From NCBI GenBank assembly GCA_015075725.1, contig JABTTV010000001.1, positions 2,232,001 through 2,296,000 on the forward strand: a stretch of DNA of 64,000 nt, given 5' to 3'. How positions within the stretch are numbered: the first letter of the stretch is position 1; the number at the start of each line of letters is the position of its first letter. The notes beneath the pieces are model-generated. The model ran no database searches, was not told the DNA's origin, and worked only from the letters and a program-made list of their open reading frames with translations. Below, piece after piece: positions 19,166-42,855 of this stretch. Both the position numbers and the translations under genes were made by a program. The DNA comes from Anaerolineales bacterium (GTDB taxonomy: Bacteria; Chloroflexota; Anaerolineae; Anaerolineales; Villigracilaceae).

Positions 19166-19244
19166 ATAACTAATATTTTTGCAAAGTGGATGTTAAATTC
19201 GTTATCCTTACCAATGGGTTAATCAAGTTAAAATGGTATTGATA

Positions 19245-19250
19245 TATAAT
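19245..19250 (+). promoter_or_regulatory. -10 box of the repeat-protein gene
   Basis: TATAAT 45 bases before the chosen ATG, in an AT-rich gap after rfbD. An ATG upstream of it (19233) is in frame but would precede the promoter, so the later ATG with AGGAAAGG is preferred. Confidence 0.5.
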
Positions 19251-19295
19251 GAATGTAATTGTTTTCGGTCAAATCAGCAGGAAAGGTTCTTAAAA

Positions 19296-22200
19296 ATGAA
19301 AAAGTATATTAATATCTCTCATTGGCTTGCCGCGGTGTTCCGAGTTTGTATAGTGGCAGTTTTGGTGGCTGTCACTTTTATTTATACCATTCCGGTCAAA
19401 GCGGCGGCGGGCGCGGGGACGTATGATAATACGGATGGGAACTGGACGTACACAGGGACGTGGACGGCGTCGACCGGGGTGGCGGGCGCCTACAACAACA
19501 CGTTCATATATTCAGGGACGACCGGGAATACGGCGACGTTCATGTTCAGCGGGACGCAGTTCATCTTTACGTACACGCAAAACACGAACCGGGGGAACAT
19601 CGAGGTGCGCGTGGATGGGAACCTGGTGACGACGATTAATGCGAACGGGGCTTTGCAATTCCAGAAGACGTACACCAGTCCGACCTTTGCCTCTGGGATG
19701 CACACGGTGGAGTTCAGGAATGCAGGCGGACCTGGGATTTACATCGATATCGACGCCATCCAGATATTGGACGGCGCAGCGCCAGGCGCGGGGACGTATG
19801 ATAATACGGATGGGAACTGGACGTACACAGGGACGTGGACGGCCTCGACAGGTGTGGCGGGCGCCTACAACAACACGTTCATATATTCAGGGACGACCGG
19901 GAATACGGCGACGTTCATGTTCAGCGGGACGCAGTTCATCTTTACGTACACGCAAAACACGAACCGGGGGAACATCGAGGTGCGCGTGGATGGGAACCTG
20001 GTGACGACGATCAATGCGAACGGGGCTTTGCAATTCCAGAAGACGTACACCAGTCCGACCTTTGCCTCCGGGACGCACACGGTGGAGTTCAGGAATGCAG
20101 GCGGACCTGGGATTTACATCGATATCGACGCCATCCAGATATTGAGCGGTGCTCTTCCCGGAACTCCCGGCGTGGGGACGTATGACGATAGCGACAGCAA
20201 TTGGACGTACACAGGGACGTGGACGGCCTCGACAGGTGTGGCGGGAGCCTACAACAACACGTTCAGATACACCGGGACAACCGGGGATAAGGCGACGTTC
20301 ACATTCAATGGGACGCAGTTTATTTTGACATATACGCAAAACACGAACCGGGGGAACATAGAGGTGCGCGTGGATGGGAACCTGGTGACGACGATCAATG
20401 CGAACGGCGCCTTGCTCTTCCAGAGGACGTACACCAGTCCGACCTATGCATCCGGGACGCACACGGTGGAGTTCAGGAATGCAGGCGGACCCGGGATTTA
20501 TATCGATATCGACGCCATCCAAGTTTTGGATGCGGGTGGAACGGGCGAACCCGATTTGACTGTGAACAAAAGCCACTCAGGAAGCGGAGTTGAGCAAGGT
20601 GAAACCGGTAAGATATTTACGATTACCGTGACCAACAGCGGCGACGCACCTACAACCGGCACCGTGACAGTTGTCGACTCGCTCCCTGCCAAACTGACCG
20701 CCACTGCCATGAGCGGCAGCGGATGGAGTTGTACGCTCGGTACGTTGACTTGCACACGCAATGATTCTTTGGACGGTTTTCTTAGTTACCCCGACATCAC
20801 TTTGATGGTAAATGTAGGCAATCCGATCGTTGCCAACAGCCTGACCAACGAGGTGACAGTGAGCGGCGGCGGAGAAACAAATACCGCCAACAACACAGAC
20901 AGCGACGAAGTGACGGTCTTGAAACCGGACCTTGTGATTCTTGGTTACGAATTGCGCAATGCCGCCAATGATGCTGTCATCACGACGCCGCTTCCTGATG
21001 AGGCGTTCCATATTCGTATGACGGTGAAGAACCAAGGTACAGCGCCTACGGGTCTCTTCTATCCCGGCGTGTTTTTGGATGATCAGCCCAATTACGGACC
21101 GGATACTGAGCCGTTTGGAAGGGTTTCGGATTGGACCGGCTACCGGCGCACTCCCAATGATGAGGATTCTGTCTCCGGCATAGGTTGTAATTATTATGAC
21201 CCGACCGATTCCATTAATCCCTTGACGACCGCTGTTGATACAGAACGCGGCAACTACACCCGTTCCAGCTTCAACAGCTCGCTCGATCCCGGTGCGCAGG
21301 CTAATGTGGATGTCTATATCGGTTACCCAGATTCCGAACCTGAATATTCCGATCCGGCATACGATCCTTATAGGACAGGTTTACCTGAAGGTTCCTATAC
21401 CGTTTATCTTTATGTTGACCCTAATTGTTCCGGTGGGGCAATGGAGAGTAATGAGGAGAATGCATTTGATCCCATCAATATAACTGTATCAAATACTTCC
21501 AGCGCGCCGGGAGCAGGGACGTATGACGATAGCGACAGCAATTGGGCATATACAGGGACTTGGACGGCGTCGACAGGTGTGGCGGGAGCCTACAACAACA
21601 CGTTCCGATATACCGGGACGAGCGGGGATAAGGCGACCTTCATGTTCAGCGGGACGCAGTTCATTTTGAAGTACACGCAGAACACGAACCGCGGGAACAT
21701 CGAGGTGCGCGTGGATGGGAACCTGGTGACGACGATCAATGCGAACGGGGCTTTGCAATTCCAGAAGACGTACACCAGTCCGACCTTCGCCTCCGGGACG
21801 CACACGGTGGAGTTCAGGAATGCAGGCGGACCCGGGATTTACATCGATATCGACGCCATCCAGATATTGAGCAGTGCAGCTCCCGGCGCGGGGACGTATG
21901 ACGATAGCGACAGCAATTGGACGTACACAGGGACGTGGACGGCCTCGACAGGTGTGGCGGGAGCCTACAACAACACGTTCAGATACACCGGGACAACCGG
22001 GGATAAGGCGACGTTCACATTCAATGGGACGCAATTCATTTTGAAGTATACGCAAAACACGAACCGCGGGAACATCGAGGTGCGCGTGGATGGGAACCTG
22101 GTGACGACGATCAATGCGAACGGGGTTTTGCAATTCCAGAAGACCTACACCAGTCCGACCTTTGCCTCCGGGACGCACACGGTGGAGTTCAGGAATGCAG

Positions 22201-22991
22201 GCGGACCTGGGATTTACATCGATATCGACGCCATCCAGATATTAAGCGGTGTTGCGCCGGGAGCAGGGACGTATGACGATAGCGACAGCAATTGGGCATA
22301 TACAGGGACTTGGACGGCGTCGACAGGTGTGGCGGGAGCCTACAACAACACGTTCCGATATACCGGGACGAGCGGGGATAAGGCGACCTTCATGTTCAGC
22401 GGGACGCAGTTCATTTTGAAGTACACGCAGAACACGAACCGCGGGAACATCGAGGTGCGCGTGGATGGGAACCTGGTGACGACGATCAATGCGAACGGGG
22501 CTTTGCAATTCCAGAAGACCTACACCAGTCCGACCTTTGCCTCCGGGACGCACACGGTGGAGTTCAGGAATGCAGGCGGACCCGGGATTTACATCGATAT
22601 CGACGCCATCCAGATATTGAGCGCGCCGGTAGCGGGGACGTATGACGATAGCGACAGCAATTGGACGTACACAGGGACGTGGACGGCCTCGACAGGTGTG
22701 GCGGGAGCCTACAACAACACGTTCAGATACACCGGGACAACCGGGGATAAGGCGACGTTCACATTCAATGGGACGCAATTCATTTTGAAGTATACGCAAA
22801 ACACGAACCGCGGGAACATCGAGGTGCGCGTGGATGGGAACCTGGTGACGACGATCAATGCGAACGGGGTTTTGCAATTCCAGAAGACCTACACCAGTCC
22901 GACCTTTGCCTCCGGGACGCACACGGTGGAGTTCAGGAATGCAGGCGGACCTGGGATTTACATCGATATCGACGCCATCCAGATTCAGTGA
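19296..22991 (+). CDS. Secreted protein with seven near-identical beta-sandwich-like repeats
   Basis: About 1231 residues. Signal peptide at 1-35 (basic start, hydrophobic core LAAVFRVCIVAVLVAVTFIYT, exit near VKAAAG). Repeats of 123-128 residues begin near 41, 166 and 294, then again near 741, 866, 991 and 1114. Each has GTYDD-DSNWTYTGTW, YNNTF-Y-G, FNGTQFI, RGNIEVRVDG, SGTHTVEFRN and PGIYIDIDAIQI. The spacer holds a DUF11-like domain (about 418-542; VTVTNSGDAPTTGTVTV style) and a CARDB-like domain (about 543-735, VKNQGTAPTG...). The repeat fold looks like a carbohydrate-binding jelly roll, which is inference. There is no sorting signal or C-terminal helix. Sits between the rhamnose operon and the glycan island, so a role at the cell surface is likely. 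Stop is followed by a terminator. Confidence 0.88.
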   Translation: MKKYINISHWLAAVFRVCIVAVLVAVTFIYTIPVKAAAGAGTYDNTDGNWTYTGTWTASTGVAGAYNNTFIYSGTTGNTATFMFSGTQFIFTYTQNTNRGNIEVRVDGNLVTTINANGALQFQKTYTSPTFASGMHTVEFRNAGGPGIYIDIDAIQILDGAAPGAGTYDNTDGNWTYTGTWTASTGVAGAYNNTFIYSGTTGNTATFMFSGTQFIFTYTQNTNRGNIEVRVDGNLVTTINANGALQFQKTYTSPTFASGTHTVEFRNAGGPGIYIDIDAIQILSGALPGTPGVGTYDDSDSNWTYTGTWTASTGVAGAYNNTFRYTGTTGDKATFTFNGTQFILTYTQNTNRGNIEVRVDGNLVTTINANGALLFQRTYTSPTYASGTHTVEFRNAGGPGIYIDIDAIQVLDAGGTGEPDLTVNKSHSGSGVEQGETGKIFTITVTNSGDAPTTGTVTVVDSLPAKLTATAMSGSGWSCTLGTLTCTRNDSLDGFLSYPDITLMVNVGNPIVANSLTNEVTVSGGGETNTANNTDSDEVTVLKPDLVILGYELRNAANDAVITTPLPDEAFHIRMTVKNQGTAPTGLFYPGVFLDDQPNYGPDTEPFGRVSDWTGYRRTPNDEDSVSGIGCNYYDPTDSINPLTTAVDTERGNYTRSSFNSSLDPGAQANVDVYIGYPDSEPEYSDPAYDPYRTGLPEGSYTVYLYVDPNCSGGAMESNEENAFDPINITVSNTSSAPGAGTYDDSDSNWAYTGTWTASTGVAGAYNNTFRYTGTSGDKATFMFSGTQFILKYTQNTNRGNIEVRVDGNLVTTINANGALQFQKTYTSPTFASGTHTVEFRNAGGPGIYIDIDAIQILSSAAPGAGTYDDSDSNWTYTGTWTASTGVAGAYNNTFRYTGTTGDKATFTFNGTQFILKYTQNTNRGNIEVRVDGNLVTTINANGVLQFQKTYTSPTFASGTHTVEFRNAGGPGIYIDIDAIQILSGVAPGAGTYDDSDSNWAYTGTWTASTGVAGAYNNTFRYTGTSGDKATFMFSGTQFILKYTQNTNRGNIEVRVDGNLVTTINANGALQFQKTYTSPTFASGTHTVEFRNAGGPGIYIDIDAIQILSAPVAGTYDDSDSNWTYTGTWTASTGVAGAYNNTFRYTGTTGDKATFTFNGTQFILKYTQNTNRGNIEVRVDGNLVTTINANGVLQFQKTYTSPTFASGTHTVEFRNAGGPGIYIDIDAIQIQ
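19416..20531 (+). repeat. Tandem coding repeats 1-3 (375-384 bp units)
   Basis: Three units start at 19416, 19791 and 20175. Units 1 and 2 are almost base-identical over 375 bp (for example ATG versus ACG in the SG-M/T-HTVEF codon); unit 3 is more diverged. Such near-identity at silent sites points to recent duplication or gene conversion. Confidence 0.9.
21516..22988 (+). repeat. Tandem coding repeats 4-7, a duplicated pair
   Basis: Units start at 21516, 21891, 22266 and 22635. Units 4 and 6 differ at only about two bases, and 5 and 7 are nearly identical, while 4 and 5 differ more. So a two-unit block (about 750 bp) was duplicated as a whole. Confidence 0.9.
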
Positions 22992-23458: not shown

Positions 23459-25798
23459 GTGAAGACAAAGATTGGTGTTCAATCAATTTTCTCAATATTA
23501 TTCTTTTTCTCAGGGTCTGCCGCGATAGCCTTCCAGGTAATCTGGCAGAAAGTTCTTGCCCAAGTAGTCGGAGTTGATTCGGTTTCGGTTGCAATCATAG
23601 TAATAATATTTATGTCTGGTTTAGGTTTTGGTTCCTTATACGCTGCATACTTTATTGAGCGTTTTAAAGGACGCCTTATATTTTATTATAGCTTTATAAA
23701 TATTTTTATTGGGTTTTATGGTTTTTTTTCGTTGAAATTAATTCGAAAGATCAATGAGTTATTAATCCCTTTCGTTCCCAATTCATTTCTTTCTGATCTT
23801 TTGATTAATTTCTTGATACTGTTCACACCCATATTCTTGATGGGTATGACGACGCCCGTGGTGATTGAGCTGTCGAAGGAAGATCTGGCGTCTCTTGGAA
23901 AGACGGAAGGATTTTTTTATGGAATTAATACATTAGGTTCGGCTATTGGGGCATTAATTACGAATTTTGTATTGATTGAATGGATAGGTTTTGCTGGCAC
24001 CGTAAGCTTGGCGTCTTTGTTGTACTTATTAATATCTGTTATCGTCTTCAGGATTTATCAAACAGAAACGAGGAAAAGTTACGAAACACTGGCGGGGGCT
24101 CGTAATTATTCTGCTGCTCTCGAGTTTGATATCATGCTCCCTTCATTTCTCTTTGGTTTTTCCAGTTTATCATTGGAACTGATACTTTTCAGGGTATTAA
24201 GTAATTATCTGACTATGTCAACATTGGTTTATCCTGTAATGATATCTTCCTTTTTGATATTGATTGCGGCAGGTAATTATGTCGGGGGAATATTAGTCGA
24301 CAGGCAATTTATCAACAAAGCAAAGCTGATTTTTTTTATTGGCATCAGTGCTTTGATTTTGATCACAATTCCTTTCATCATATCCCCCAGCGCTTTTGCC
24401 GGTGTAGGCGCTCTCGTTTTTACAAGCTTTAATGGGCAACTAGTATCTGAAATTCCCAATGTGCGGATAGGAGATCCAAATCCAATTATTGCTTTTTTAT
24501 TTTCTCTATTTTTTATGATTGGCATACTGCCTCTGGCGAGTTTTTTTACAATCATTGCCCGTATTTCGACTAAAAATATAGAATCCGCAGGGAGTCGATT
24601 TGCGCTCATACTTTTTTGGTATACAGTTGGGAATATTTTTGGGTCTTTCCTCACAGGATTATATTTCTTCGAGTGGTTCGGCACCATTGGATCGTTGTTA
24701 GTTGTTTTGGCTGTGATATTTCTAAGTGTAGCCATCCTTTTGTACTCACAGATAAAAAAAATCGATAAGGCTTATGTGAAACAGGGTTTTTTCTTGGCAA
24801 TGATCTTGATATTTTGCCTTTTTGTGATTCCCAAAGATTACTATATGCGTTTCAGATTGGGTAACTATGAACCAGCCAAAATCTATGAAGGACGGAATGG
24901 AGTTGTCTCGGTTGTGCCCACAAGCAGGTTTTATACAATTATTGATATGTTTAGAACAGCTTCTGCTTCAGCGATTGTTAGAGACCCGGAACCGGGTGAA
25001 CAGTATGAGGCTTGGAGGTGGAATATGTCTCAGATAATGGCATTGGATCCAGAATTCCGCCCTAAGAGGATTTTGATTATCGGATTAGGACACGGGTATC
25101 TTGTTAATGCGCTGTTAGATTATGATTTTGTTGAAGAAATAATAATTGTAGATATTTCCGATGAGATTGTTCTCGCTGTAGAAGAGAATACAGACGGATC
25201 CTATCAGCGAATGTTTGAAGATCCTCGTGTCAAAATCATAATTGACGATGGGAGACGTTATGCCCAACGGGCATTGGTTGCGGGAGAAAAATTCGATCTA
25301 ATTCAGAATAAAGTAAATGAACCATGGCATAGCGGATCTGCGAGTTTGTTTACTGTCGAATTCTTTGGTGTCATGCGCGACTTACTTACACCAAATGGCT
25401 ACGTAGCTGTCCGACCCAAGGTCGGACATGCGTTTGACGCTTTGAAAGTTTTTGATTACGCGATCTGGCCAACAGGCGACTATCATATGTATTTAGGACG
25501 CAATGAGAGTTTTCGCCCTTTTGAATTGCAAATTACTGATGATATTTATTCGGAATTTATTGCTACAACGCCTGGGCATCGGGATGATAGTACTGCTAAT
25601 AATAGGCGACAGAAAATTACAATCGTGTTATTGGAGCCTGGAGACTTAGTTGGTTATCAAAACAATACAGATGATCGTCCGGTTTTTGAGTATTACTGGC
25701 TTAATAATTTTAGTCAAAAGTATAATGATCCAAGAATTGATATTTCATTGGAACAGTACAGAGAAAAAATTATTACCGCTTATAGTAAGGAACAATGA
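23459..25798 (+). CDS. Membrane protein with spermidine-synthase-like C-terminal domain
   Basis: 779 residues starting at GTG with AAAGGAG upstream. About ten to twelve membrane helices fill residues 1-450 in the style of fused MFS/spermidine-synthase proteins (GSAAIAFQVIWQKVLAQVVG at the start is typical). The C-terminal Rossmann domain has LIIGLGHGYLVNAL (motif I), IVDISDEIV, and IIDDGRRYAQ. At the catalytic place of aminopropyl transferases, where two Asp are expected, this protein reads QNKVNEPWHSG, with Asn in both places, so true spermidine synthesis is doubtful. Its role may be membrane-linked methyl or aminopropyl transfer in surface-glycan export. First gene of the AT-rich island. 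Confidence 0.8.
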   Translation: MKTKIGVQSIFSILFFFSGSAAIAFQVIWQKVLAQVVGVDSVSVAIIVIIFMSGLGFGSLYAAYFIERFKGRLIFYYSFINIFIGFYGFFSLKLIRKINELLIPFVPNSFLSDLLINFLILFTPIFLMGMTTPVVIELSKEDLASLGKTEGFFYGINTLGSAIGALITNFVLIEWIGFAGTVSLASLLYLLISVIVFRIYQTETRKSYETLAGARNYSAALEFDIMLPSFLFGFSSLSLELILFRVLSNYLTMSTLVYPVMISSFLILIAAGNYVGGILVDRQFINKAKLIFFIGISALILITIPFIISPSAFAGVGALVFTSFNGQLVSEIPNVRIGDPNPIIAFLFSLFFMIGILPLASFFTIIARISTKNIESAGSRFALILFWYTVGNIFGSFLTGLYFFEWFGTIGSLLVVLAVIFLSVAILLYSQIKKIDKAYVKQGFFLAMILIFCLFVIPKDYYMRFRLGNYEPAKIYEGRNGVVSVVPTSRFYTIIDMFRTASASAIVRDPEPGEQYEAWRWNMSQIMALDPEFRPKRILIIGLGHGYLVNALLDYDFVEEIIIVDISDEIVLAVEENTDGSYQRMFEDPRVKIIIDDGRRYAQRALVAGEKFDLIQNKVNEPWHSGSASLFTVEFFGVMRDLLTPNGYVAVRPKVGHAFDALKVFDYAIWPTGDYHMYLGRNESFRPFELQITDDIYSEFIATTPGHRDDSTANNRRQKITIVLLEPGDLVGYQNNTDDRPVFEYYWLNNFSQKYNDPRIDISLEQYREKIITAYSKEQ

Positions 25799-26175: not shown

Positions 26176-27135
26176 ATGTATAAAGACAAAACAATTGCTG
26201 TAGTTGTGCCTGCATACCAAGAAGAATTGCTGATAGGGCGCGTAATTGAAACGATGCCGGAATTTGTTGATAAAATTGTGATTGTTGATGACTTTAGTTC
26301 TGATAATACTGTTTCCATTGTAAATAGTCATCTGGATAAACTTCCAAAGAAAATCGTGCTTATTCGCCATGAAGTAAATCAGGGCGTGGGAGGTGCGATT
26401 GCCACAGGTTATAAATGGTGCCGCGATCATGGTTTCGATGTTGCAGTTGTGATGGCGGGCGATGCTCAAATGGACCCTAAAGACTTACCCGCAATACTCG
26501 ATCCCGTAGTCGCCGGAATTGTCGATTTTTCCAAAGGTAATAGACTTATTACAGGTGATGCATGGGAAAAAATACCAAAGGTTCGCTATTTGGGTAACTC
26601 AGTTTTATCATTACTGACTAAAATTGCATCTGGTTATTGGCATGTTGCCGATTCGCAAACCGGTTACACGGCTATTAATAAACGAGCTTTGAAGTTAATT
26701 GATTGGAATAAGATGTATAAGCGGTATGGGCAACCGAATGATTTGCTTGTTCGGTTGAATATTTATAATCTGCGAGTATGTGATGTGGCAGTTACTCCAG
26801 TTTATAATATTGGTGAGAAAAGCGGTATTAAACCATTTCGAATTATCCCCAAGATGTCCGCCCTGCTTTTTAAGCTATTTCTGTATCGTATGACCCAAAA
26901 GTATATTATTCGCGATTTTCACCCGCTGATATTTTTCTATTTTGCCGGATTTCTTTTCTTTATCTTGGATTCATTATTTCTTATTCGTTTTTTTATTCTA
27001 TGGACGCGTTCAGGCAACATTCCTGAGATAACAGCACTTTCAATAGTATTTTGCACTTTTTCCAGCATGTTGTTCACCCTTTTTGCAATGTTGTTTGACA
27101 TGGAATACAATCGCTCACTGGGAAAAGATTGGTGA
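26176..27135 (+). CDS. Family 2 glycosyltransferase, polyprenyl-phosphate type
   Basis: 319 residues. GT-A core: TIAVVVPAYQEELLIGRVIE, KIVIVDDFSSDNTVSIV, VNQGVGGAIATGYKWC, VAVVMAGDAQMDPKDLPAIL (DxD-like Asp). It resembles DPM1/dolichyl-phosphate mannosyltransferase relatives. Two C-terminal membrane helices (FFYFAGFLFFILDSLFLI; SSMLFTLFAMLFDMEY). It probably makes a polyprenyl-phosphate sugar donor that GT-C enzymes such as the next gene use outside the membrane. AGGAG precedes the start; low GC like its neighbours. Confidence 0.88.
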   Translation: MYKDKTIAVVVPAYQEELLIGRVIETMPEFVDKIVIVDDFSSDNTVSIVNSHLDKLPKKIVLIRHEVNQGVGGAIATGYKWCRDHGFDVAVVMAGDAQMDPKDLPAILDPVVAGIVDFSKGNRLITGDAWEKIPKVRYLGNSVLSLLTKIASGYWHVADSQTGYTAINKRALKLIDWNKMYKRYGQPNDLLVRLNIYNLRVCDVAVTPVYNIGEKSGIKPFRIIPKMSALLFKLFLYRMTQKYIIRDFHPLIFFYFAGFLFFILDSLFLIRFFILWTRSGNIPEITALSIVFCTFSSMLFTLFAMLFDMEYNRSLGKDW

Positions 27136-27185: not shown

Positions 27186-30100
27186 ATGCGACGTATAGAT
27201 AAGAAACATCTCCCTATATTCCTCATCTTATTCAGTGTCATATTGGTTCTCGGTACCATATCAATTTTATCCGCCCAATACGAAGAATCACAATACGAAG
27301 AACCGATTTACAAAGACCCACAGATCGAAGAACTGCAATACGAAGTAGAACAGTACGATGGGATGTATAAATATTCCATAGAGAGGGATTACAAAGCCCT
27401 TTTACGGCATTTTTCGGAAGAGAATCCTGGACGTGGAGTCTTAGATTATCCTGGAAATGAAACTTCTGATTATGCCAAATCCTATGCAATGTTTCTTAGC
27501 GCAGAGCTGTTACGGGCGCAGCGAGAGCCGGAATTTCACTTATCGGATATGGGGGAAAATGCAGGAAATTGGCTACTTGATAATGCAGATATCGATGGCG
27601 ATGGCGTAGTTGGATGGGGGCTTCCTGTAGAATGGGATGCTTATGGGGATGGGACGGTAAATCCTCCAAACACGATATACACCATTACTACTGCTATTGC
27701 AATCAATGGATTATTAGATTGGCTGGAGATGGATCCTGATGCCCCTGAAGAACGAATAATTACGACAGTTGATGCTGCGTTTGAGCCATTTATAGATCCA
27801 AAAGCTTTAACACAAGATGGGCTATTAATGTATTCTCTGTCAAGTAATGACCAAGCTTACAGTACATTTAACCCGGGGGCTTATATGGCTGGTCAGATGC
27901 AACGGTTCAGTAGCGTTCATTCCAATTCTGCAAAACGTGATCAATTGCGTTTTGTTTCAGATACGATTATGGAATCTTTGCTTGTCTATAAACAACTAGA
28001 TCAAAATGGGGGCTGGTATTGGAATTATAGTATAGATGAACATGTCCCGAACGATGCGACACATTCCATTTATATTATTGAGGGAATTTACCAGTATATA
28101 AGATATCAAGGATCATTGGCAAATCAATTTGATTGGGTTGCGATAAACAGGCATATTCTTCTATTTTATTCTCCCGAAGAACTGCAATTTAAGCGCTTTC
28201 CACAGGTTTTGAATTATTCATTTCCTGGACAGCCTCGTTTATATGAATTGGGTATGTTAATGTATTATATGGGGAAATTTGACCTGAAAGAAACTGGTGA
28301 TGCCTTATATGCCTTTTCAGCAACATACCGTTTACCGGATGGCACCTACGCTAAACTTCCAGTAAGTGAAGACGGTTCAGAAAACAAATTGGTCGTTAAT
28401 GAATATATGTCTTATTTACTATATGGATTTAGTTCGTTGATTAACCGTCCTGTTCCCGAAAATATACAATCCCTAAGGAGCGATTGGAATTTGTTGCTTG
28501 ACCCTGTTGCATTGCTACCAACTGATACAAACGAGAATATCCTTGTCCCTTTTTCTTATTTTGACGTGGAAGACTACAATATTGAGCTCCTGTTCAATGT
28601 TCGTTTGTTGAAGGGTGAGCTGGTAGTGAATAATACAAGAATTGCCCTGCCAGCACGGGTTTTACCAATTAAGATCCTCGAATGGAATAAGAAGAATTTG
28701 GTCATTTTTACACGTGCTCTTTGGTCGAATAAAATCCAAGTTTGGAAACTTGACATTGAATCGAAATATTTTCAATCAATTCCCATGCCAGATTATCTGG
28801 ATGAAGGTATGTTCCGGCAGGGGATTTTATTTAATGAGCATATTGTCTTTATTCTTTTTGACCCGATTGCGAAGACGAATTATATATACCGGATTATTCC
28901 GACTAATGAATCTGATCAATCACTCCAATTTGACGAAAATTATAAACAGGAGTATTTCATCAACGAGCAGCTGGGTTATCGACAGCAACCAAAAATATTA
29001 ATGACAAAATTTCAGGGACACCTAATCATTGCTTCCGACTCGATCGTTTACGATTATGATTATTCGCCTACTATCGAAAAAACTACTCTACAACGTTCCA
29101 CTGATCTCCCTAATCGATATAAATTACTTGAACTTTCCTCTGACGATATTGGTGTTTTTGCATTATATAAGGATATCGAATTCTCCTTTGACAAACCAAT
29201 TTCGAGAGATAATAGACCGTTTATACTATATGATGTTGCTAACAAAAAAATTTTCCTTGATGATTATAAAGGACGTGTACCTTATAATTTGCAAGTAATT
29301 GATGGACAAGCAACAATTCATTTTGTTGAATCGCAAGAAGATATAATTAAATTGTTTTTGCTAGACCTACAAAATATGCCCGCCTCAGGTCTGATGAGTG
29401 CCGGAGTAAATAACTTTGAGGGAGAGGTTATCTGGACTCAATCTTACTATTTGAATGCGATGATAGACATATTGAGTGCGAATGAAGATTATCATACGAT
29501 AGACCCTTTTAACCCTATCAGATCACAACTTAAACAACGCTTGGATTTTGAGATGGCATTAATTGATAGGATGATATTGGAGGGTCCTGGATTACTTTGT
29601 AAAACATTTACGGTAGATCGTACGCCAACCTTGCATGCTGTTCAGACCGGAAAGTTTCTATTATTGTTGAAACGGTACTTAACCCTTCCGAATGCAATTG
29701 AAATGAGTAGTTATGAGGAATTTCGTAAGAGAGTAATTAACTTGGATGGGCACATTGAGGTCTTTGCTCAAGCAGAATCTAGTAACCCTTGGTTGACTGA
29801 AGGTAGATATTACTTGATGTGGCCAAAAGGGTCACCGTTTTGGGCAGATGGCGTTGGTATCCCCTATAATCATCAAAATATGTGGGCGGCTGGTGTTTTA
29901 TATGGTGAAGATTTGAACGATTTACCGGATGACGACCTGAGACAGATCACCTATGATATTAGCTCACAAGTTTTGGATCTAGAGGGGTTTCGCAGGGTTA
30001 TTCCAAAACATAGTCATTGGTTTGCAAAATCTTCGGGATATTATCAATGGTATTATTGGTGGGGACCTGCAAAGGAGGGATGGGCTGAAGCTGATGACAT

Positions 30101-31892
30101 ATCGGTAAATACCCCGTCATGGCGCGGTGATGGTGATAACATTGCACTGCCTGTTTATAGGACTTTTGATGCAATCACTATCTTGATCGCAGGTAAACAT
30201 TTTAATAATTTTTTACCAACTGGCATCTTGGAATATTTTAGAAACGGGATCGAAAAAGGTGAACTGGAATTGTTTATAATTCCATATTTAGAACAATATG
30301 GCAAAATTCCCAATATTGACCAGGGATTAGCAATTAAGAATTTGCGCAGTGCCAGCCAGCCAGATATGCGAAATGCTGTCTGGGCTTATCGTTATCTTTC
30401 TTATAGTATTAATAGCCCGCTATATTCAGTAAGTTCGGAGACTAACTCTCAGATTCCAATGGTGGGCACCTTTATCTTGGATGTGGCACTTGTTTTATTA
30501 TGTGCTTTTTTGCTTAATGCCATATTGCGGATTGACAGGCTCATACCTTGGTTGATAGGGTTATACCTTTTTGTTTACGCTATAGTCGTATTGACTATAG
30601 TATTGAGCAGTCTGCTTTCGCTTCTAAATAGCAAAGCATTTTTCTTGTTATTCCATTGGTCGTTCTTGGTAATCCTTACATTAATTTGGTTATTGAGAGA
30701 TGCTCCCGATTTATTCATGCCATTACGGTTGCTCAACCTCAATCCTGCATCTTGGCTGCCTTCTTTCAAGCCACATTGGGATATTTGGATAGCGGGCGTA
30801 ATATGTGCTTTTGGTTTTGTTTTTATTGGATATTCAAATTTAGTCCTTCCACAATCTATCGACGATGTCCTCACTGCTCACCTTTCACGCATAGGTTACT
30901 GGCTGCAATTTGGCAATTTGAAGCCATGGCAGGCTGATACATATCAAATGGCACAGGTCATATATCCATTTAATGCCCAGGCTCAAATTTACTGGAGTTT
31001 ATTGTTCTTAAGGACGGATCAACTGGCGGGCTTTTCGCAATGGATTGCATTGCCGATCATGATATTGACCATTTATGGTTTTTGCCGGATGATGAAGATG
31101 GGTCGCAAGTGGGCGATAATGGCGTCTTTGACTGTATTTTCGCTGCCTAGCATATATTTACAGACTTTTAGCGCGATGACAGATCTGATCAGTGCTGTGT
31201 TGTTTGTTAGTATGCTTTATTTATTGTTATCAGGGTTGGAGAGCAGGCGATTGGAAATCTTGGGATTGTCAGGATTGGCTTTGGGGCTTTCCATTGGAAC
31301 CAAGCAGACCATCATCTTTGCTATTCCGGGTCTGATAATTGTTCTAATATATATTGTGATAATAAAGAAGAAAGCTGTGATTAAGTATTTATTACAATGG
31401 GCAGGAGCATCCTTTGCTTCGATTTCTATAACTGGTGCATATATTTATATAGCCAATTATTATTGGTGGGGAAGCCCTTTCGGTCCTCCAGCGACCTTTC
31501 AAGGATTTACAAATAGAGAAACAACTCTATCCGTATTTGATACTTTAATAAGGTTTTTATTGAATGCGAAAAGTCTGTTGGCGGCAATATTTCACCTTGA
31601 CCTGTTCAGTTGGAATTATTCAGTGGTAAATCCGAGTCCGGGACCTGTGTTTGGATTATTGATATTATTCACATTTATTTACATGGGATCAATTATTAGG
31701 ACAAGGCAAAAAAATGTACCTGCTTTTTCCTTATTTATTATTTCTGTTTTTTACGGTTTGACCCTGTTAGTTGTGCGTGAATATACAACTGCTTTGTTGC
31801 GATATCTTATTATCTCGTATGTGCTTTTAATACCGCTGGCATTTTCGGGTCTCTCAGTTTTTGCTGAAGAAAAATTTAAGACTGAGGAGTAG
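27186..31892 (+). CDS. 1568-residue fusion: large ectodomain plus GT-C-like membrane domain
   Basis: Signal-anchor helix at the start (IFLILFSVILVLGTISIL), then an acidic Glu/Tyr-rich stretch with YEE/YKD repeats (about 34-60). Residues about 60-1090 are soluble and should be extracytoplasmic; they contain helical-barrel-like parts (NAGNWLLDNADIDGDGVVGWG; WYWNYSIDEH; TEGRYYLMWPKGSPFWADG) reminiscent of epimerase or glycoside-hydrolase alpha/alpha folds, but I cannot name a family. From about residue 1098 to the end are some 12 membrane helices with a GT-C/ArnT-like loop LPQSIDDVLTAHLSRIGYW carrying paired acidic residues. It may both transfer and process a glycan. Ends four bases before the next gene. 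Very low GC. Confidence 0.7.
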   Translation: MRRIDKKHLPIFLILFSVILVLGTISILSAQYEESQYEEPIYKDPQIEELQYEVEQYDGMYKYSIERDYKALLRHFSEENPGRGVLDYPGNETSDYAKSYAMFLSAELLRAQREPEFHLSDMGENAGNWLLDNADIDGDGVVGWGLPVEWDAYGDGTVNPPNTIYTITTAIAINGLLDWLEMDPDAPEERIITTVDAAFEPFIDPKALTQDGLLMYSLSSNDQAYSTFNPGAYMAGQMQRFSSVHSNSAKRDQLRFVSDTIMESLLVYKQLDQNGGWYWNYSIDEHVPNDATHSIYIIEGIYQYIRYQGSLANQFDWVAINRHILLFYSPEELQFKRFPQVLNYSFPGQPRLYELGMLMYYMGKFDLKETGDALYAFSATYRLPDGTYAKLPVSEDGSENKLVVNEYMSYLLYGFSSLINRPVPENIQSLRSDWNLLLDPVALLPTDTNENILVPFSYFDVEDYNIELLFNVRLLKGELVVNNTRIALPARVLPIKILEWNKKNLVIFTRALWSNKIQVWKLDIESKYFQSIPMPDYLDEGMFRQGILFNEHIVFILFDPIAKTNYIYRIIPTNESDQSLQFDENYKQEYFINEQLGYRQQPKILMTKFQGHLIIASDSIVYDYDYSPTIEKTTLQRSTDLPNRYKLLELSSDDIGVFALYKDIEFSFDKPISRDNRPFILYDVANKKIFLDDYKGRVPYNLQVIDGQATIHFVESQEDIIKLFLLDLQNMPASGLMSAGVNNFEGEVIWTQSYYLNAMIDILSANEDYHTIDPFNPIRSQLKQRLDFEMALIDRMILEGPGLLCKTFTVDRTPTLHAVQTGKFLLLLKRYLTLPNAIEMSSYEEFRKRVINLDGHIEVFAQAESSNPWLTEGRYYLMWPKGSPFWADGVGIPYNHQNMWAAGVLYGEDLNDLPDDDLRQITYDISSQVLDLEGFRRVIPKHSHWFAKSSGYYQWYYWWGPAKEGWAEADDISVNTPSWRGDGDNIALPVYRTFDAITILIAGKHFNNFLPTGILEYFRNGIEKGELELFIIPYLEQYGKIPNIDQGLAIKNLRSASQPDMRNAVWAYRYLSYSINSPLYSVSSETNSQIPMVGTFILDVALVLLCAFLLNAILRIDRLIPWLIGLYLFVYAIVVLTIVLSSLLSLLNSKAFFLLFHWSFLVILTLIWLLRDAPDLFMPLRLLNLNPASWLPSFKPHWDIWIAGVICAFGFVFIGYSNLVLPQSIDDVLTAHLSRIGYWLQFGNLKPWQADTYQMAQVIYPFNAQAQIYWSLLFLRTDQLAGFSQWIALPIMILTIYGFCRMMKMGRKWAIMASLTVFSLPSIYLQTFSAMTDLISAVLFVSMLYLLLSGLESRRLEILGLSGLALGLSIGTKQTIIFAIPGLIIVLIYIVIIKKKAVIKYLLQWAGASFASISITGAYIYIANYYWWGSPFGPPATFQGFTNRETTLSVFDTLIRFLLNAKSLLAAIFHLDLFSWNYSVVNPSPGPVFGLLILFTFIYMGSIIRTRQKNVPAFSLFIISVFYGLTLLVVREYTTALLRYLIISYVLLIPLAFSGLSVFAEEKFKTEE

Positions 31893-31895
31893 CTC

Positions 31896-33224
31896 GTGTT
31901 ACAAAAGGTGCGTAAACTAGCAAGGGATACTATGGAGAAAAAAGACCTAAAATCCCTCCTCATAGGGATCCTTCTTGGATTTCCGATTGTGTTAAGTTTT
32001 TCTGGTCATTTCCTATTTTTTTGGTCGCGTAGTGATGTAGTTAAATATCTTATCTTTTTCGGATTGTTAATTTTGTCAGGAGTATTGATTGGTTTACTTC
32101 TTAATAAATCTTTGAGGACAAGGCCAAAACTGACTAATAATGAACTGGTGATATTTCTTATCTTGCTTTGTATGATTTTGGGATTTGGCTTGGTGTTTAG
32201 ATCAAGAATTCCTTTGCCCCTGTTGCCGCCAACAATGTACAACATGATTTTAACTATAAGTGGTGAAAATACAGATGCCACAAGTTATTCAAAACCTATA
32301 ATCGGAATAAGGATGCTGGAAGCAAAAAGCAACAGAGCTATTTCTCTTTCGACAATATCATGTGATGGTGATTTTCTTGAGGCTAAAAGGAATGCATATT
32401 ATTTTGAGTTAGGTTCTTCTGAAGGCAAATTGCGATGCTCCTTTCGGGGGAATGTGCGTGACGCTATTATATTTATTTTCTTAAAACCACAAAACGAGGG
32501 GAGGGTGGTCGAGACGGTTTTTCGTTCTGATGCAGGGATGACGACACAAGAAACGTTTTATGTTCAATATTCTAATAATCCAACGAAAAGTTATGGTGTG
32601 TTGTTACCACACACATACTTTAGTATTTTCTGTTTGTTGTTAGATATTATTTCATTCGCGATCATTTTATCTCTTTTAATTTATGTGTTCTTCCAAGAAA
32701 TAAGAAAATTAATACCGAGAGTATTTATTTTATTTCCCGCTATAACTATGTTGTATTTGATGATCTATCCATATTCCAGCGGATATATAATTGGTAAAGA
32801 TCGTACAGATTTTCAGTTATACAGGCTTCCTGAATACGAACGGATGATTCGGGATGTAGATCGTTATGTGCCCGAAGACGCTTCCATGGTGATTGTTTAT
32901 CCCGGGAAGTATCCCGTCTCGCCTTTATTTGGTCAAAATTACACGCGTCGCTTGTTGCCTCAATATCCTGCTCCAGAATCGATTTCTGCTGACTACTTAG
33001 TCAGCTTGGGTGCAGAATATCTACTTATGAGCGCGGAGTTATTTGAAAAAGATAAACTTGAGCCCGATGGACAACTTCATTTTGTTATTTATGGAGGAGG
33101 GGAAGTACTATACCCTAATTACTCACTGTATGGCATGCTAAAATCAGGACTTATAATCGTCGCATCTTGCGTAAAACAGCCTGATTGTTTGGTTAGATAT
33201 TATATATTTAGTGTACAGAGATAA
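31896..33224 (+). CDS. Unrecognised membrane protein
   Basis: 442 residues from GTG (GAGGAG upstream), three bases after the previous stop. Three helices near the N-terminus (about 20-110), an extracytoplasmic beta-rich region (about 125-225), two helices (about 230-290), then a soluble C-terminal part with YRLPEYERMIRDVDRYVPEDASMVIVYPG and ADYLVSLGAEYLLMSAE. The last region resembles the ligand-binding tail seen after GT-C domains, so it may be a partner of the preceding fusion protein. No family assigned. Confidence 0.7.
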   Translation: MLQKVRKLARDTMEKKDLKSLLIGILLGFPIVLSFSGHFLFFWSRSDVVKYLIFFGLLILSGVLIGLLLNKSLRTRPKLTNNELVIFLILLCMILGFGLVFRSRIPLPLLPPTMYNMILTISGENTDATSYSKPIIGIRMLEAKSNRAISLSTISCDGDFLEAKRNAYYFELGSSEGKLRCSFRGNVRDAIIFIFLKPQNEGRVVETVFRSDAGMTTQETFYVQYSNNPTKSYGVLLPHTYFSIFCLLLDIISFAIILSLLIYVFFQEIRKLIPRVFILFPAITMLYLMIYPYSSGYIIGKDRTDFQLYRLPEYERMIRDVDRYVPEDASMVIVYPGKYPVSPLFGQNYTRRLLPQYPAPESISADYLVSLGAEYLLMSAELFEKDKLEPDGQLHFVIYGGGEVLYPNYSLYGMLKSGLIIVASCVKQPDCLVRYYIFSVQR

Positions 33225-33269: not shown

Positions 33270-35318
33270 ATGTGCGGAATATTTGGCGTAATTGCTCGAC
33301 CCGATCCTGAGCTTTCAGTTTCAAACGTTAAAATGGTAATGGATAAACTGTTTTTGCTTTCCGAGTCTCGAGGAAAAGAAGCAGCAGGTATAGCTTATAT
33401 AAATCCTGATTCTATTTATGTTGCGAAATATGCAGAAACAGCTTCCCAAGTGATAAAACGAAAGACCTACAAAGATATTTTTGATCGCAACACATCCGCC
33501 GAAAGTATCCATGGAAGTATTAAGGGAGGATTTCCTATTTGTATGATGGGCCATTCTCGCCTTGTGACCAATGGCGGACAGCAATTTCATGCTAATAACC
33601 AGCCAGCCATTGCATGCGGAATAGTGGCGATTCATAATGGGATCATTACCAACTCCAATGATTTATGGCTTCGATACCCTCACCTGGAAAAATCTACCCA
33701 ATTGGATACAGAAGTATTTTTGGCGATGCTTCGTGATAAGTTAAGACAAACTGAAAGTCTGACGGAAGCCGTCAGTTCGACCTACATGGATGTAGAAGGA
33801 GTTGCATCCATAATTGCCTATTTTGAGGATATAAATTGTGTACTTCTATCGACAAATAACGGATCGTTGTATTTTGGAACGAACCGAGAGAAAGGAATTT
33901 ACGTTTTTGCTTCTGAAAAATATATTTTGACTAGCTTTGCGAAATCTAGGGGGATTCCAGTCTCAATGCAGAATCTGATTGTTCGCCAGGTTGAACCCGG
34001 TCAGGGAATAGTCATCTCCTTGGATACCCTGAGTTTAGAGAGTTTTCGGTTCGATCAAAATCGACCCATAGAAATCTCCTTGGCTCCATTGGAAACTCCA
34101 AGGAAAATCGTGGATCTCTCTCTTCCTGAGCATTTAGGCACCAATGAATTAAAAATGCCGGGAGAAGGTCCATATATCCTGCCGCCTAATTTTATTGATG
34201 AATTTCCAAAGAATATAAATGCGATAAATTCTCTCCGCCGCTGTTCAAAATGTATTTTGCCTGAAACAATGCCTTTCATTGAGTTCGATAATGATGGGGT
34301 TTGTAATTATTGTCGCAGCTATCAACCTATCACCTATTTAGGATTGGAAGCATTGCAAGAAAAATTAGTGCCATATAGAAAAACGAATGGTGACCCCGAT
34401 TGTTTGGTCACTTTTAGTGGCGGACGCGATTCCAGTTATGCTGTTCACATTCTAAAGAATTTGCTGGGAATGCGCCCGGTTACTTATACTTATGATTGGG
34501 GAATGATCACAGATCTTGGGCGTCGAAATCAAATGCGCATATGTGGGAAACTTGGGCTTGAAAATATACTAGTCTCTGCAGATATTGGGCGCAAAAGGGA
34601 AAATATTAAAAAAAATATATTGGCATGGTTAAAAACCCCGGATCTTGGAACAATCCCACTATTTATGGCGGGAGATAAACAATATTTTTATTACGCCAAC
34701 AAGGTTGGAGAGCAAACGAATAGCAAACTTATTGTTCTTGGTGAGAACCTGCTAGAAACCACTCGGTTTAAATCAGGCTTTTGTGGAATCGAACCTCAAT
34801 TTGAGGAAAGTCATACTTATACACTTTCCTTTGCAAACAAATTTAAATTAGCTATGTATTATGCTAGACAGTATTCTATAAATCCCGCCTATATTAATTC
34901 TTCGCTTATTGACACGATTGGTGCATATATATCCTATTATTTTATTCCACATAATTATCTGAATATATATCAGTATATTAAGTGGGATGAACGGGAAATT
35001 GATCGTACCCTTATTGAAGTTTATGACTGGGAAACGGCTAAGGATACAAAAACGACATGGCGGATTGGGGATGGAACAGCATCTTTTTATAACTATATTT
35101 ATTTCACAATGGCTGGTTTTACAGAAAACGATACATTTAGAAGCAACCAAATTCGTGAAGGTATGTTGACTCGGGAAGAGGCGCTAGGAAAAATAGAAAC
35201 GGATAATCAACCGAGATATGAGTCCATCCAATGGTACTGCGATATCATAGGGATTGACTTCGATACAACATTACAAAAGATAAACCTTGCCCCCAAGCTT
35301 TATCAGATTTATCTTTGA
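33270..35318 (+). CDS. Class II glutaminase fused to WbpG-like sugar amidotransferase
   Basis: 682 residues with AAGGAG upstream. Residues 1-260: Ntn glutamine amidotransferase (MCGIFGVIARPDPE, so Cys2 is the nucleophile; GHSRLVTNGGQQFHANNQPA; AIHNGIITN). Residues 320-620: a zinc-type C-x2-C pair (CSKC at 325-328, CNYC at 345-348) and a PP-loop SGGRDSS at 383-389, then GMITDLGRRNQMRICGKLG and LVLGENLLETTRF-like residues, as in the N-acetyl sugar amidotransferase WbpG/PseA group, which makes acetamidino sugars. In those systems ammonia normally comes from separate HisH/HisF-like partners; here the glutaminase is built in. The likely product is an amidated nucleotide or lipid-linked sugar for the surface glycan. 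Confidence 0.88.
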   Translation: MCGIFGVIARPDPELSVSNVKMVMDKLFLLSESRGKEAAGIAYINPDSIYVAKYAETASQVIKRKTYKDIFDRNTSAESIHGSIKGGFPICMMGHSRLVTNGGQQFHANNQPAIACGIVAIHNGIITNSNDLWLRYPHLEKSTQLDTEVFLAMLRDKLRQTESLTEAVSSTYMDVEGVASIIAYFEDINCVLLSTNNGSLYFGTNREKGIYVFASEKYILTSFAKSRGIPVSMQNLIVRQVEPGQGIVISLDTLSLESFRFDQNRPIEISLAPLETPRKIVDLSLPEHLGTNELKMPGEGPYILPPNFIDEFPKNINAINSLRRCSKCILPETMPFIEFDNDGVCNYCRSYQPITYLGLEALQEKLVPYRKTNGDPDCLVTFSGGRDSSYAVHILKNLLGMRPVTYTYDWGMITDLGRRNQMRICGKLGLENILVSADIGRKRENIKKNILAWLKTPDLGTIPLFMAGDKQYFYYANKVGEQTNSKLIVLGENLLETTRFKSGFCGIEPQFEESHTYTLSFANKFKLAMYYARQYSINPAYINSSLIDTIGAYISYYFIPHNYLNIYQYIKWDEREIDRTLIEVYDWETAKDTKTTWRIGDGTASFYNYIYFTMAGFTENDTFRSNQIREGMLTREEALGKIETDNQPRYESIQWYCDIIGIDFDTTLQKINLAPKLYQIYL

Positions 35319-35481: not shown

Positions 35482-36771
35482 ATGAATTACTTATCATCCA
35501 TTCTTGCTCGCTCTGGCGTCTCAGAAAAAATTTCAACAAATGTTATGTGGAACATTGCCAGTTATGGGATTATAGCAGTGATTGGACTGCTATTAAACTT
35601 CGTTATAGCGTTTTACTATGATACAGCAGTCTTGGGGGTTTTTAATCAAGTCTTTGCATATTATATTTTCCTTTCGCAATTAGCTGTAGGAGGGGTTCAT
35701 CTGTCAATGTTGAAGGCAGTTGCTCAATCTCACAATGATGAAGATCGGGTAATTAAACTTTTTACCTCTGGCATGATACTTACATTATTAACTTCTCTAT
35801 TTGTTTCATTGATCACTTATTTGTTAAAAGAATTTTTAGGAGAAATATTAAGGAGTCAGGACGTAAGTGTCGGAGTAGGATATATTGTTCCGGGGTTGTT
35901 ATTTTTCTCTTTGAATAAGACGATGCTTGCACTTATTAATGGGTTGAACCAAATGAAAGATTACGCGATCTTTCAAGCCCTGCGATATATCTTTTTCCTG
36001 CTTAGTATTTCCTGTCTGGTTGCATTGTCTTTCCCAGGAAATGTGCTTCCTGTAATATTTTCATTGTCAGAGGGTGCTTTGTTCTTATTGCTTTTGATAA
36101 AAACCTATAAACATCTCGATATTAATGGTTCTTGGTTATACAAAGACTTGTATTATTCTCATGCTTTATTTGGTCTGAAAGCTGCTGGCGGAAATTTGCT
36201 TTTGGACATCAACACGCGAGTTGACGTCATAGTTTTGGGTTATTTTGCCTCCGACCGAATAGTGGGTATTTATAGTATTGCAGCTTTAGTCGTTGAAGGG
36301 TTCTGCCAGCTGCCGGTTGTATTAAGGGCTAATGTTAATCCGTTAATTACTCAGGGTTTCTACAATAAAAATAGACAGGACTTTCAAAAATTATTAATAA
36401 AGATTAGAAATTTATCCTTCCTTGTTCTTAGCCCTGTTGGGATAATTATTGCATTGGCTTTTCCTTTGCTATTTCTAATATGGTCCGACCCAGACCTCAT
36501 AGCTTCCTGGAAACCATTGGTTATTATCATGGTCGGTGTTCTAATGAGCGTCGGATACTTACCTTTGCTCACAATTTTTAATCAAACTGGCCATCCCGCA
36601 AGTCAAACTATATTAATTTTTGTAATTTTTCTAACAAATTTAATTTTGAATATTCTTTTAGTGCCATTATATGGTTTAATAGGATCGGCAATAGCAACTG
36701 GATTAACATTTGCGTTACAGGGGTTATATATTCGTTGGCTTGTTTTTCGAATAATAAAATCAAAAATTTAG
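35482..36771 (+). CDS. Polysaccharide flippase, Wzx/MATE-like (first of two)
   Basis: 429 residues with about 12-14 hydrophobic helices across the whole length and no large soluble part. The N-terminus VMWNIASYGIIAVIGLLLNFVIAFYYDTAVLG and the GLKAAGGNLLLDINTRVDVIVLG segment are typical of polysaccharide_synt/RfbX-family lipid-linked oligosaccharide flippases. It should move undecaprenyl-linked repeat units outward. No ribosome site is evident; TTTATATG lies right at the ATG. Confidence 0.85.
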   Translation: MNYLSSILARSGVSEKISTNVMWNIASYGIIAVIGLLLNFVIAFYYDTAVLGVFNQVFAYYIFLSQLAVGGVHLSMLKAVAQSHNDEDRVIKLFTSGMILTLLTSLFVSLITYLLKEFLGEILRSQDVSVGVGYIVPGLLFFSLNKTMLALINGLNQMKDYAIFQALRYIFFLLSISCLVALSFPGNVLPVIFSLSEGALFLLLLIKTYKHLDINGSWLYKDLYYSHALFGLKAAGGNLLLDINTRVDVIVLGYFASDRIVGIYSIAALVVEGFCQLPVVLRANVNPLITQGFYNKNRQDFQKLLIKIRNLSFLVLSPVGIIIALAFPLLFLIWSDPDLIASWKPLVIIMVGVLMSVGYLPLLTIFNQTGHPASQTILIFVIFLTNLILNILLVPLYGLIGSAIATGLTFALQGLYIRWLVFRIIKSKI

Positions 36772-36998: not shown

Positions 36999-38438
36999 AT
37001 GATAAGAGAATTTATCAAGTCCAGTTCGGTGTATTCAATTCCATCATTTATATCTCAGGGACTCTCGTTTCTATTAATACCCATATACACCAGAATTCTA
37101 AGTCCCTCAGATTACGGTTTTCTCGATCTCGTGATCGTTTTTGCTACATTGGTGAACCTCACTATCCCCCTCCAGATTTCTCAAGGCCTGGCTTATTTTT
37201 ATGGAAAAGAAAATGTTCTAGAACGTAAAAAGAAATATTCATCTTCTGCTTTGTGGTTCACGATTGCCTCCTATAGTTGTTTTGTTTTGTTGTTTGTTTT
37301 TCAAGCAGATCAAATTTCCATAATAATAATGGGAAGCCGGGCTTGGCAGACCTCTGCCCAATTAGGGATTCTCTACATTTGGAGTAATGGTATATATTTT
37401 CTTGTGCAAAATCAATTCCGTTGGGAATTGCGGAGCAGACAATATGTAGTGGTGAACCTGATAATGAACATAGTGACTACAGGAGCTTCATTGTGGTTGG
37501 CATTTGGATGCGAAATGGGGTTAGAAGGTGTGATTATAGGTAAGTTTATAGGGAACTTGGTTGGTATTGGGTTTTCAATATATTGGTTGCGTGAGAGTTA
37601 TCTTTTTCAAATTGACATCAAGATCCTTCAAGAATTACTTGTCTTCTCTTTGCCATTAGTAATAGCTGGAATTTCTGTCTGGGCTAATCTCTATATAGAC
37701 CGTTTGATGATTAATGCTATTCTTACTATAAAAGAGGTTGGTATTTACGGCATCGGAAATCGTTTTTCCAATTTGGCATCCACAGCGATGATCGGTTTTC
37801 AGCTTGCTCTACCACCACTTATTTACAATCATTATCAAGCCGAGGAGACACCTAGGCATATCTCGAAAATCCTGAATGTATATCTTGCTTTTGCTTTAAC
37901 TATATTTATGATCCTGGCTCTTTTTATTAATGACATCTTGCGATTAATGACAACTAAACCGTTCTATGGTGCTGCAGATTTGATAATTTATCTTGTCCCT
38001 GCCGCTTTTTTGGGACAAATGTATATTTTTTCCCCTGGCTTAGTAATTTCTAAAAAGACAAATATGATTGGCTATATTAACTTAGGTGGTGCAATAATCA
38101 ACCTTGGATTAAACCTTTTCCTAATCCCTTATTTCGGTGTTAAGGGCGCAGCTATCGCAACTCTTCTGAGCAATTTTTTCATATTTATAGCCCTCATGAG
38201 CTTAGGTCAGAAGTATTATCGAATACCCTATGAATGGCGTTCGGTTATCGTAATGGTGGCAACTGCCAGCATTATAATTGTCACTATTCCTAATTTACTA
38301 CCGGCCGTGTATTTGATGGCTCTTGTGATAAAACTCCTTGGGATTGGATTATTCATATTTGCATTGAATATATTCAAGGTAATAAATTTTAAAACAATTA
38401 AAAATGAACTCCATTTACTGATTACCAAACAATTCTAG
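36999..38438 (+). CDS. Polysaccharide flippase, Wzx/MATE-like (second of two)
   Basis: 479 residues, about 14 helices. SVYSIPSFISQGLSFLLIPIYTRILSPSDYGFLDLVIVFATL is the canonical flippase N-terminus (quoted in pieces: TRILSPSDYGFLDL). Later GIYGIGNRFSNLAS and IINLGLNLFLIPYFGVKGAAIATLLSNF match oligosaccharide flippases more strongly than the first copy. Two adjacent flippases may serve two glycans. The last clearly AT-rich gene before composition returns to the flanking level. Confidence 0.9.
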   Translation: MIREFIKSSSVYSIPSFISQGLSFLLIPIYTRILSPSDYGFLDLVIVFATLVNLTIPLQISQGLAYFYGKENVLERKKKYSSSALWFTIASYSCFVLLFVFQADQISIIIMGSRAWQTSAQLGILYIWSNGIYFLVQNQFRWELRSRQYVVVNLIMNIVTTGASLWLAFGCEMGLEGVIIGKFIGNLVGIGFSIYWLRESYLFQIDIKILQELLVFSLPLVIAGISVWANLYIDRLMINAILTIKEVGIYGIGNRFSNLASTAMIGFQLALPPLIYNHYQAEETPRHISKILNVYLAFALTIFMILALFINDILRLMTTKPFYGAADLIIYLVPAAFLGQMYIFSPGLVISKKTNMIGYINLGGAIINLGLNLFLIPYFGVKGAAIATLLSNFFIFIALMSLGQKYYRIPYEWRSVIVMVATASIIIVTIPNLLPAVYLMALVIKLLGIGLFIFALNIFKVINFKTIKNELHLLITKQF

Positions 38439-42847: not shown

Positions 42848-42855
42848 GTTTCTCC

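Follow-up and report, generated by a model that had tools for sequence, protein, structure and literature searches.

P0001 and P0002, adjacent forward-strand genes at positions 27186-33224 of the window (the whole 64,000-nucleotide stretch of DNA analysed), may well encode one split GT-C glycosyltransferase that decorates a surface glycan outside the cell; we put the probability of this reading at roughly 0.55. In such a pathway, the GT2 whose gene immediately precedes this pair would act in the cytoplasm, attaching a sugar to polyprenyl phosphate, and a flippase, which gene order suggests is perhaps one of two Wzx-type proteins of the same genomic island, would turn the lipid-linked sugar over. 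The GT-C core of P0001, completed by an N-module and a tail held by P0002, would then pass the sugar on to its acceptor outside the cell, while the large P0001 ectodomain would bind and position that acceptor through toroid and propeller-like parts. This would probably be an unusual version of known extracellular surface-sugar decoration. A sequence-only reading had proposed an 'export or glycosylation machine': glycosylation is the likely reading, and we rejected export because no export-type family was found in P0001 or P0002.

P0001 joins a large ectodomain to a GT-C membrane core in one frame

P0001 is an open reading frame of 1568 amino acids (27186..31892, + strand) with no internal stop, single-copy and intact in the genome, as expected from the proposed 1568-residue fusion of a large ectodomain and a GT-C membrane domain. 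We trained a codon-usage score on six island genes from the neighbourhood; it was positive for this frame in 15 of 15 sliding windows and negative for the five other frames. Because codon usage favours the frame throughout, P0001 is one coding frame rather than a chance read-through. Separate translation of the GT-C part from M1092 was rejected, as no ribosome-binding site lies there at the usual spacing.

Hydropathy analysis places one transmembrane (TM) anchor at the N-terminus (residues 11-29; 27216..27272, +) and nine clear TM segments between residues 1096 and 1559, with no TM segment in residues 30-1095. Given the N-terminal anchor and the orientation we infer from it, about 1060 residues would lie outside the cell, in agreement with the ~1000 extracytoplasmic residues predicted earlier. 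The order of ectodomain first and GT-C last had been called unusual, and indeed we found no second example in the searched genome panels, which overlap and were drawn from the same phylum. Since the full architecture occurs in one genome only among these panels, conservation cannot vouch for it.

The membrane core spans residues 1096-1560 (30471..31865, +) by hydropathy, alignment and PMT_2 similarity. PMT_2 (PF13231) scores 25.8 bits in whole P0001 against a cut-off of 26.1, and 28.4 bits when residues 1091-1568 are scanned alone, so the suspected C-terminal GT-C-type domain passes the cut-off when taken by itself. Within the order, the GT-C relatives of P0001 are of the ordinary kind, and their open frames measure 632-730 aa. 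Within an alignment of seven GT-C proteins, the invariant positions include D1227, D1333, N1424 and R1539 of P0001. The DD loop pointed out previously corresponds to D1226-D1227 (30861..30866, +) in the first extracytoplasmic loop of the core; its second Asp is the invariant one and, judging from this conservation, would be the likely catalytic or metal-binding residue. D1333, the second invariant Asp, falls in the motif MTD / QND (31182..31184, +). By homology, the GT-C domain of P0001 is thus predicted to be a sugar transferase using a lipid-linked donor. The protein ends directly after a TM segment, without the last TM segment and soluble tail present in the intact GT-C L002.

The following gene appears to supply missing GT-C modules

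P0002 (31896..33224, +) encodes the anticipated 442-residue partner, with five TM segments, a beta domain and a soluble C-terminal part according to its open reading frame and hydropathy. Its GTG start codon lies 3 nt past the P0001 stop and 6 nt behind a GAGGAG ribosome-binding site located within the end of P0001 (31884..31889, +).

Residues 19-269 of P0002 (31950..32702, +) match a module that stands at the N-terminus of intact GT-Cs in three congeneric genomes and is composed of three TM segments, a beta-type soluble stretch and one further TM segment. This profile match reached E 3e-9 among 1184 sequences, including 500 shuffled versions of P0002, none of which matched. Residues 273-357 (32712..32966, +) resemble the last TM segment and C-terminal tail of L002 (E 1.5e-4 among 1247 ORFs), though the similarity is weak in a whole-genome search (E 0.006). 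That P0002 carries the GT-C N-module missing from P0001 is therefore well supported by profile similarity; that it also carries the missing C-terminal tail is suggested more tentatively. These modules lend weight to the partnership that had been proposed for the two genes.

Between them, P0001 and P0002 hold pieces that other GT-Cs carry in one chain, although in a different order. The intact PMT_2-type GT-Cs L002 and L053-L055 share the membrane core and invariant Asp residues with P0001, and P0002 matches the N-module of L053-L055 and the C-tail of L002; unlike the P0001-P0002 pair, however, these are single chains of ~630-750 aa with no large ectodomain before the core. The usual description of a GT-C enzyme is of a single chain whose soluble parts are small. 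What looks new here is the placement of the N-module, and more tentatively the tail, in a separate following gene.

Because P0002 holds modules that P0001 lacks, the region looks like a translationally coupled split GT-C behind a polyprenyl-phosphate-sugar-synthase-like GT2. The two genes share a frame and are separated by TAG CTC, and we considered whether a frameshift or sequencing artefact might lie between them; we rejected this, since a GAGGAG site at 6-nt spacing from the GTG, together with a separate module of 250 residues, points to a genuine second start. The division of modules together with translational coupling suggests that P0001 and P0002 would form an obligate complex.

The same features can also be read as the product of fusion and splitting events that took place recently in a horizontally acquired island, leaving genes that now do little or nothing. 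The single occurrence of the architecture, the odd partition of modules and the GC content (37% versus 53% around) are consistent with such an origin, but the 4.7 kb of P0001 are intact with coding signal throughout, the putative catalytic residues are kept and the translational coupling is tight. We regard this explanation as quite improbable, the least favoured of those considered here.

The ectodomain begins with a divergent alpha/alpha-toroid-type domain

A Chloroflexi MAG encodes two relatives of the first ectodomain region in neighbouring genes (E 4e-13 and 9e-15), and another genome encodes one more. From these relatives we reached a wider family of standalone proteins of ~400 aa, with homologues on plasmids of Vibrio, Methanosarcina, haloarchaea and others. 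Weak matches of family members are all to alpha/alpha toroids (GH76, GH88, the C5-epimerase C-terminus, pectate lyase and squalene cyclase), and the gene neighbours include nucleotide-sugar dehydrogenases, wecB, DUF354 and glycosyltransferases. When P0001 was compared by hhalign with six family members, the probability was 96% (P 4e-9, 246 columns), with shown homology over residues 97-378 (27474..28319, +). P0001 keeps the family residues W144, G145, W150, Q273, W279, Y281, D290 and H293. A later invariant His aligns with K368, in a part of the alignment that is uncertain. Profile comparison thus identifies residues ~97-378 as a divergent relative of standalone alpha/alpha-toroid proteins from bacterial and archaeal polysaccharide clusters. 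Because the first part of the ectodomain is homologous to proteins of such clusters, an acceptor-binding role for the ectodomain would be plausible.

Like the standalone proteins (L010, L030, L031, L038-L042 and plasmid homologues), P0001 97-378 contains W-G, W-x-Y and D-x-x-H motifs. In contrast to P0001, these proteins stand alone and mostly lack a signal peptide, and their conserved His near the C-terminus is unmatched in P0001. A match of A1 to the squalene-cyclase-like L025 was taken as generic toroid similarity, and ectodomain matches at E 0.01-0.1 were taken as chance.

The analysis also points to this toroid family as an unnamed and widespread one in its own right. Members from bacterial and archaeal polysaccharide clusters (L030, L031, L038-L042, L060, L062) are annotated variously as hypothetical protein or 'antibiotic ABC transporter permease', and their genes often adjoin DUF354 and nucleotide-sugar dehydrogenase genes. 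A secreted toroid gene occurs twice at one locus (L019 8483-10677, genome G141), as divergent copies on opposite strands with ~100 bp between them; the pair is flanked by genes for a UDP-sugar dehydrogenase and a phosphoglycerate dehydrogenase.

Structure models were unusable: AlphaFold2 reached a mean pLDDT of 38 for the ectodomain, from an input alignment of three rows, and of 35 when the first domain was modelled by itself. The predicted secondary structure, no more than a hint, runs from helices (~45-437) through strands (466-713; 28581..29324, +) to a second mostly helical region (717-1075; 29334..30410, +), which at low confidence would make the ectodomain tripartite (helical, beta-rich, helical). 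The beta-rich region had no family matches and could possibly be a beta-propeller; an apparent propeller match in L013 (E 2.5e-4) proved on reading to be a cupin-like cytosolic enzyme and was taken as chance. We rejected assignment of the second helical region, compared as residues 734-1095, to the same toroid family, as hhalign gave 0.1% and BLAST returned nothing. The earlier description of 'helical-barrel-like' segments accordingly stands for the first part of the ectodomain, through its 96% hhalign match, and for the last part amounts to low-confidence secondary structure. Searches of genome contigs, viral contigs and plasmids with the whole ectodomain, and of genome panels, found no relatives of residues ~430-1095, nor did a search of phages with the last ectodomain region, the only region searched there; the contig scans used short peptide patterns, which are insensitive to distant relatives.

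Could the ectodomain edit the glycan?

The toroid similarity raises the alternative that the ectodomain is itself an enzyme of the uronate C5-epimerase, lyase or hydrolase type, so that a single polypeptide would both edit the glycan and, through its GT-C, extend or decorate it. Relatives of the first domain weakly match GH76, GH88, C5-epim_C and pectate lyase, several toroid relatives adjoin nucleotide-sugar dehydrogenases (a uronate theme), and the D-x-x-H pair (D290, H293) is kept in P0001. However, the cut-off of a curated enzyme family is nowhere reached, no activity is known for the standalone toroid family, and K368 is the residue aligned with a His that is invariant across six family members. 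The D-glucuronyl C5-epimerase profile (PF06662) had no match in P0001 even at E 10, with one P0001 relative matching it weakly, below cut-off.

Gene order in a congener bears on the same question. There, in genome G021, the gene directly before a GT-C with a P0002-type N-module (L056 11786-14005) encodes a heparinase II/III protein of 815 aa that also has an alginate-lyase-like match (L056 9315-11762); 23 bp separate the two genes. Such an adjacency of a toroid sugar enzyme and a related GT-C would be expected if toroid enzymes and module-bearing GT-Cs cooperate, but it is a single case, as two other genomes with the P0002-type module have no adjacent heparinase-type enzyme, and P0001 itself has no match to Heparinase II/III (PF07940/PF16889).

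The suggestion of coupled glycan editing, made in the sequence-only reading, thus keeps part of its footing: the toroid and D-x-x-H pair are present, but they belong to a family without known activity, and one conserved His is unmatched. Editing by the ectodomain is possible on these motifs, though we think an enzymatic ectodomain unlikely. Less likely still is the fuller version, a two-subunit GT-C of divided fold whose toroid/beta-rich/helical enzyme would epimerise or cleave the glycan during decoration, adding and editing in one bifunctional system.

Relation to known transmembrane glycosylation systems

We favour a split GT-C that decorates a surface glycan, and this arrangement resembles multi-component (three-component) transmembrane glycosylation systems, in which a GT2 is expected to load polyprenyl phosphate (PMC8035078; PMC11127046). 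As in those systems, adjacent genes here would provide candidate flippases and an extracellularly acting PMT_2-type GT-C; the two Wzx-type genes lie nearby, with neither tied to the GT2 donor. In the GT-Cs described for such systems, TM helix 1 is usually followed by a small extracytoplasmic domain (PMC8035078; PMC11127046). P0001 differs in its huge N-terminal ectodomain before the GT-C core, and the pair differs in dividing the GT-C modules over two genes.

Extracellular glycan-handling parts are also found in AftD-type arabinosyltransferases, AftD being a GT-C with extracellular carbohydrate-binding domains (PMC8035078). We found no sequence relation between these and P0001, whose ectodomain, unlike theirs, comes first and carries a toroid. 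A review has further speculated that some GT-Cs may need a second protein for acceptor recognition (PMC8035078), a role that the P0001 ectodomain would fill here. If true, a split GT-C would bear on that question, and its combination with a ~1060-residue, probably glycan-handling ectodomain would bear on how GT-Cs recognise acceptor polymers, which the review also raises.

The genes lie in a low-GC sugar-polymer island

A stretch at ~23-38.5 kb has a GC content of 37-39%, compared with 53% in its surroundings, which suggests horizontal acquisition; this is probably a horizontally acquired sugar-polymer gene island. It contains an MFS/spermidine-synthase-like fusion, the GT2, P0001, P0002, a WbuX-like fusion and two Wzx-type flippases, followed by glycosyltransferase genes and an MraY-like GT4. 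The GT2 (26176..27135, +), which has C-terminal TM helices as would be anticipated for an enzyme that makes a GT-C donor, ends 50 bp upstream of P0001 and resembles AglJ and the polyprenyl-phospho-GalNAc synthase PpgS, both below cut-off; its similarity to these models makes it the likely donor maker for the GT-C. The flippase-like genes, both of the Polysacc_synt type, are located at 35482..36771 and 36999..38438 (both +). Within this setting, the acceptor would most likely be the island's own surface polysaccharide.

Alternatively, P0001 could be a protein O-glycosyltransferase following PMT/ArnT-like logic, its ectodomain recognising an S-layer or repeat surface protein such as the 19233-22991 product. 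The GT-C part does belong to PMT_2, and a large repeat surface protein is encoded 4 kb upstream; however, the island holds polysaccharide genes (flippases, WbuX-like), the toroid relatives sit in polysaccharide clusters, and the repeat protein gene falls outside the low-GC island. We therefore consider a protein acceptor improbable. The candidate itself is a 1252-aa ORF (19233-22991) with two arrays of ~375-bp tandem repeats, 92% alike, and CBM6/CE2_N-like and Golvesin_C matches; it probably encodes a repeat-bearing surface protein and lies a short way outside the low-GC island.

Several neighbouring genes have unusual architectures of their own. At 33270..35318 (+), a WbuX-like N-acetyl-sugar amidotransferase is fused to a class-II glutamine amidotransferase in one 682-aa chain; the two halves of such an amidation step are usually divided between two proteins. 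The 779-aa MFS/spermidine-synthase-like fusion (23459-25798) scores above cut-off for NF037959 and sits at the edge of the polysaccharide island. Finally, the MraY-like GT4 gene is followed by a gene for an 868-aa multi-spanning protein (42811-45417) that has no Pfam match and aligns with the GT-C set, including at the invariant Asp positions.
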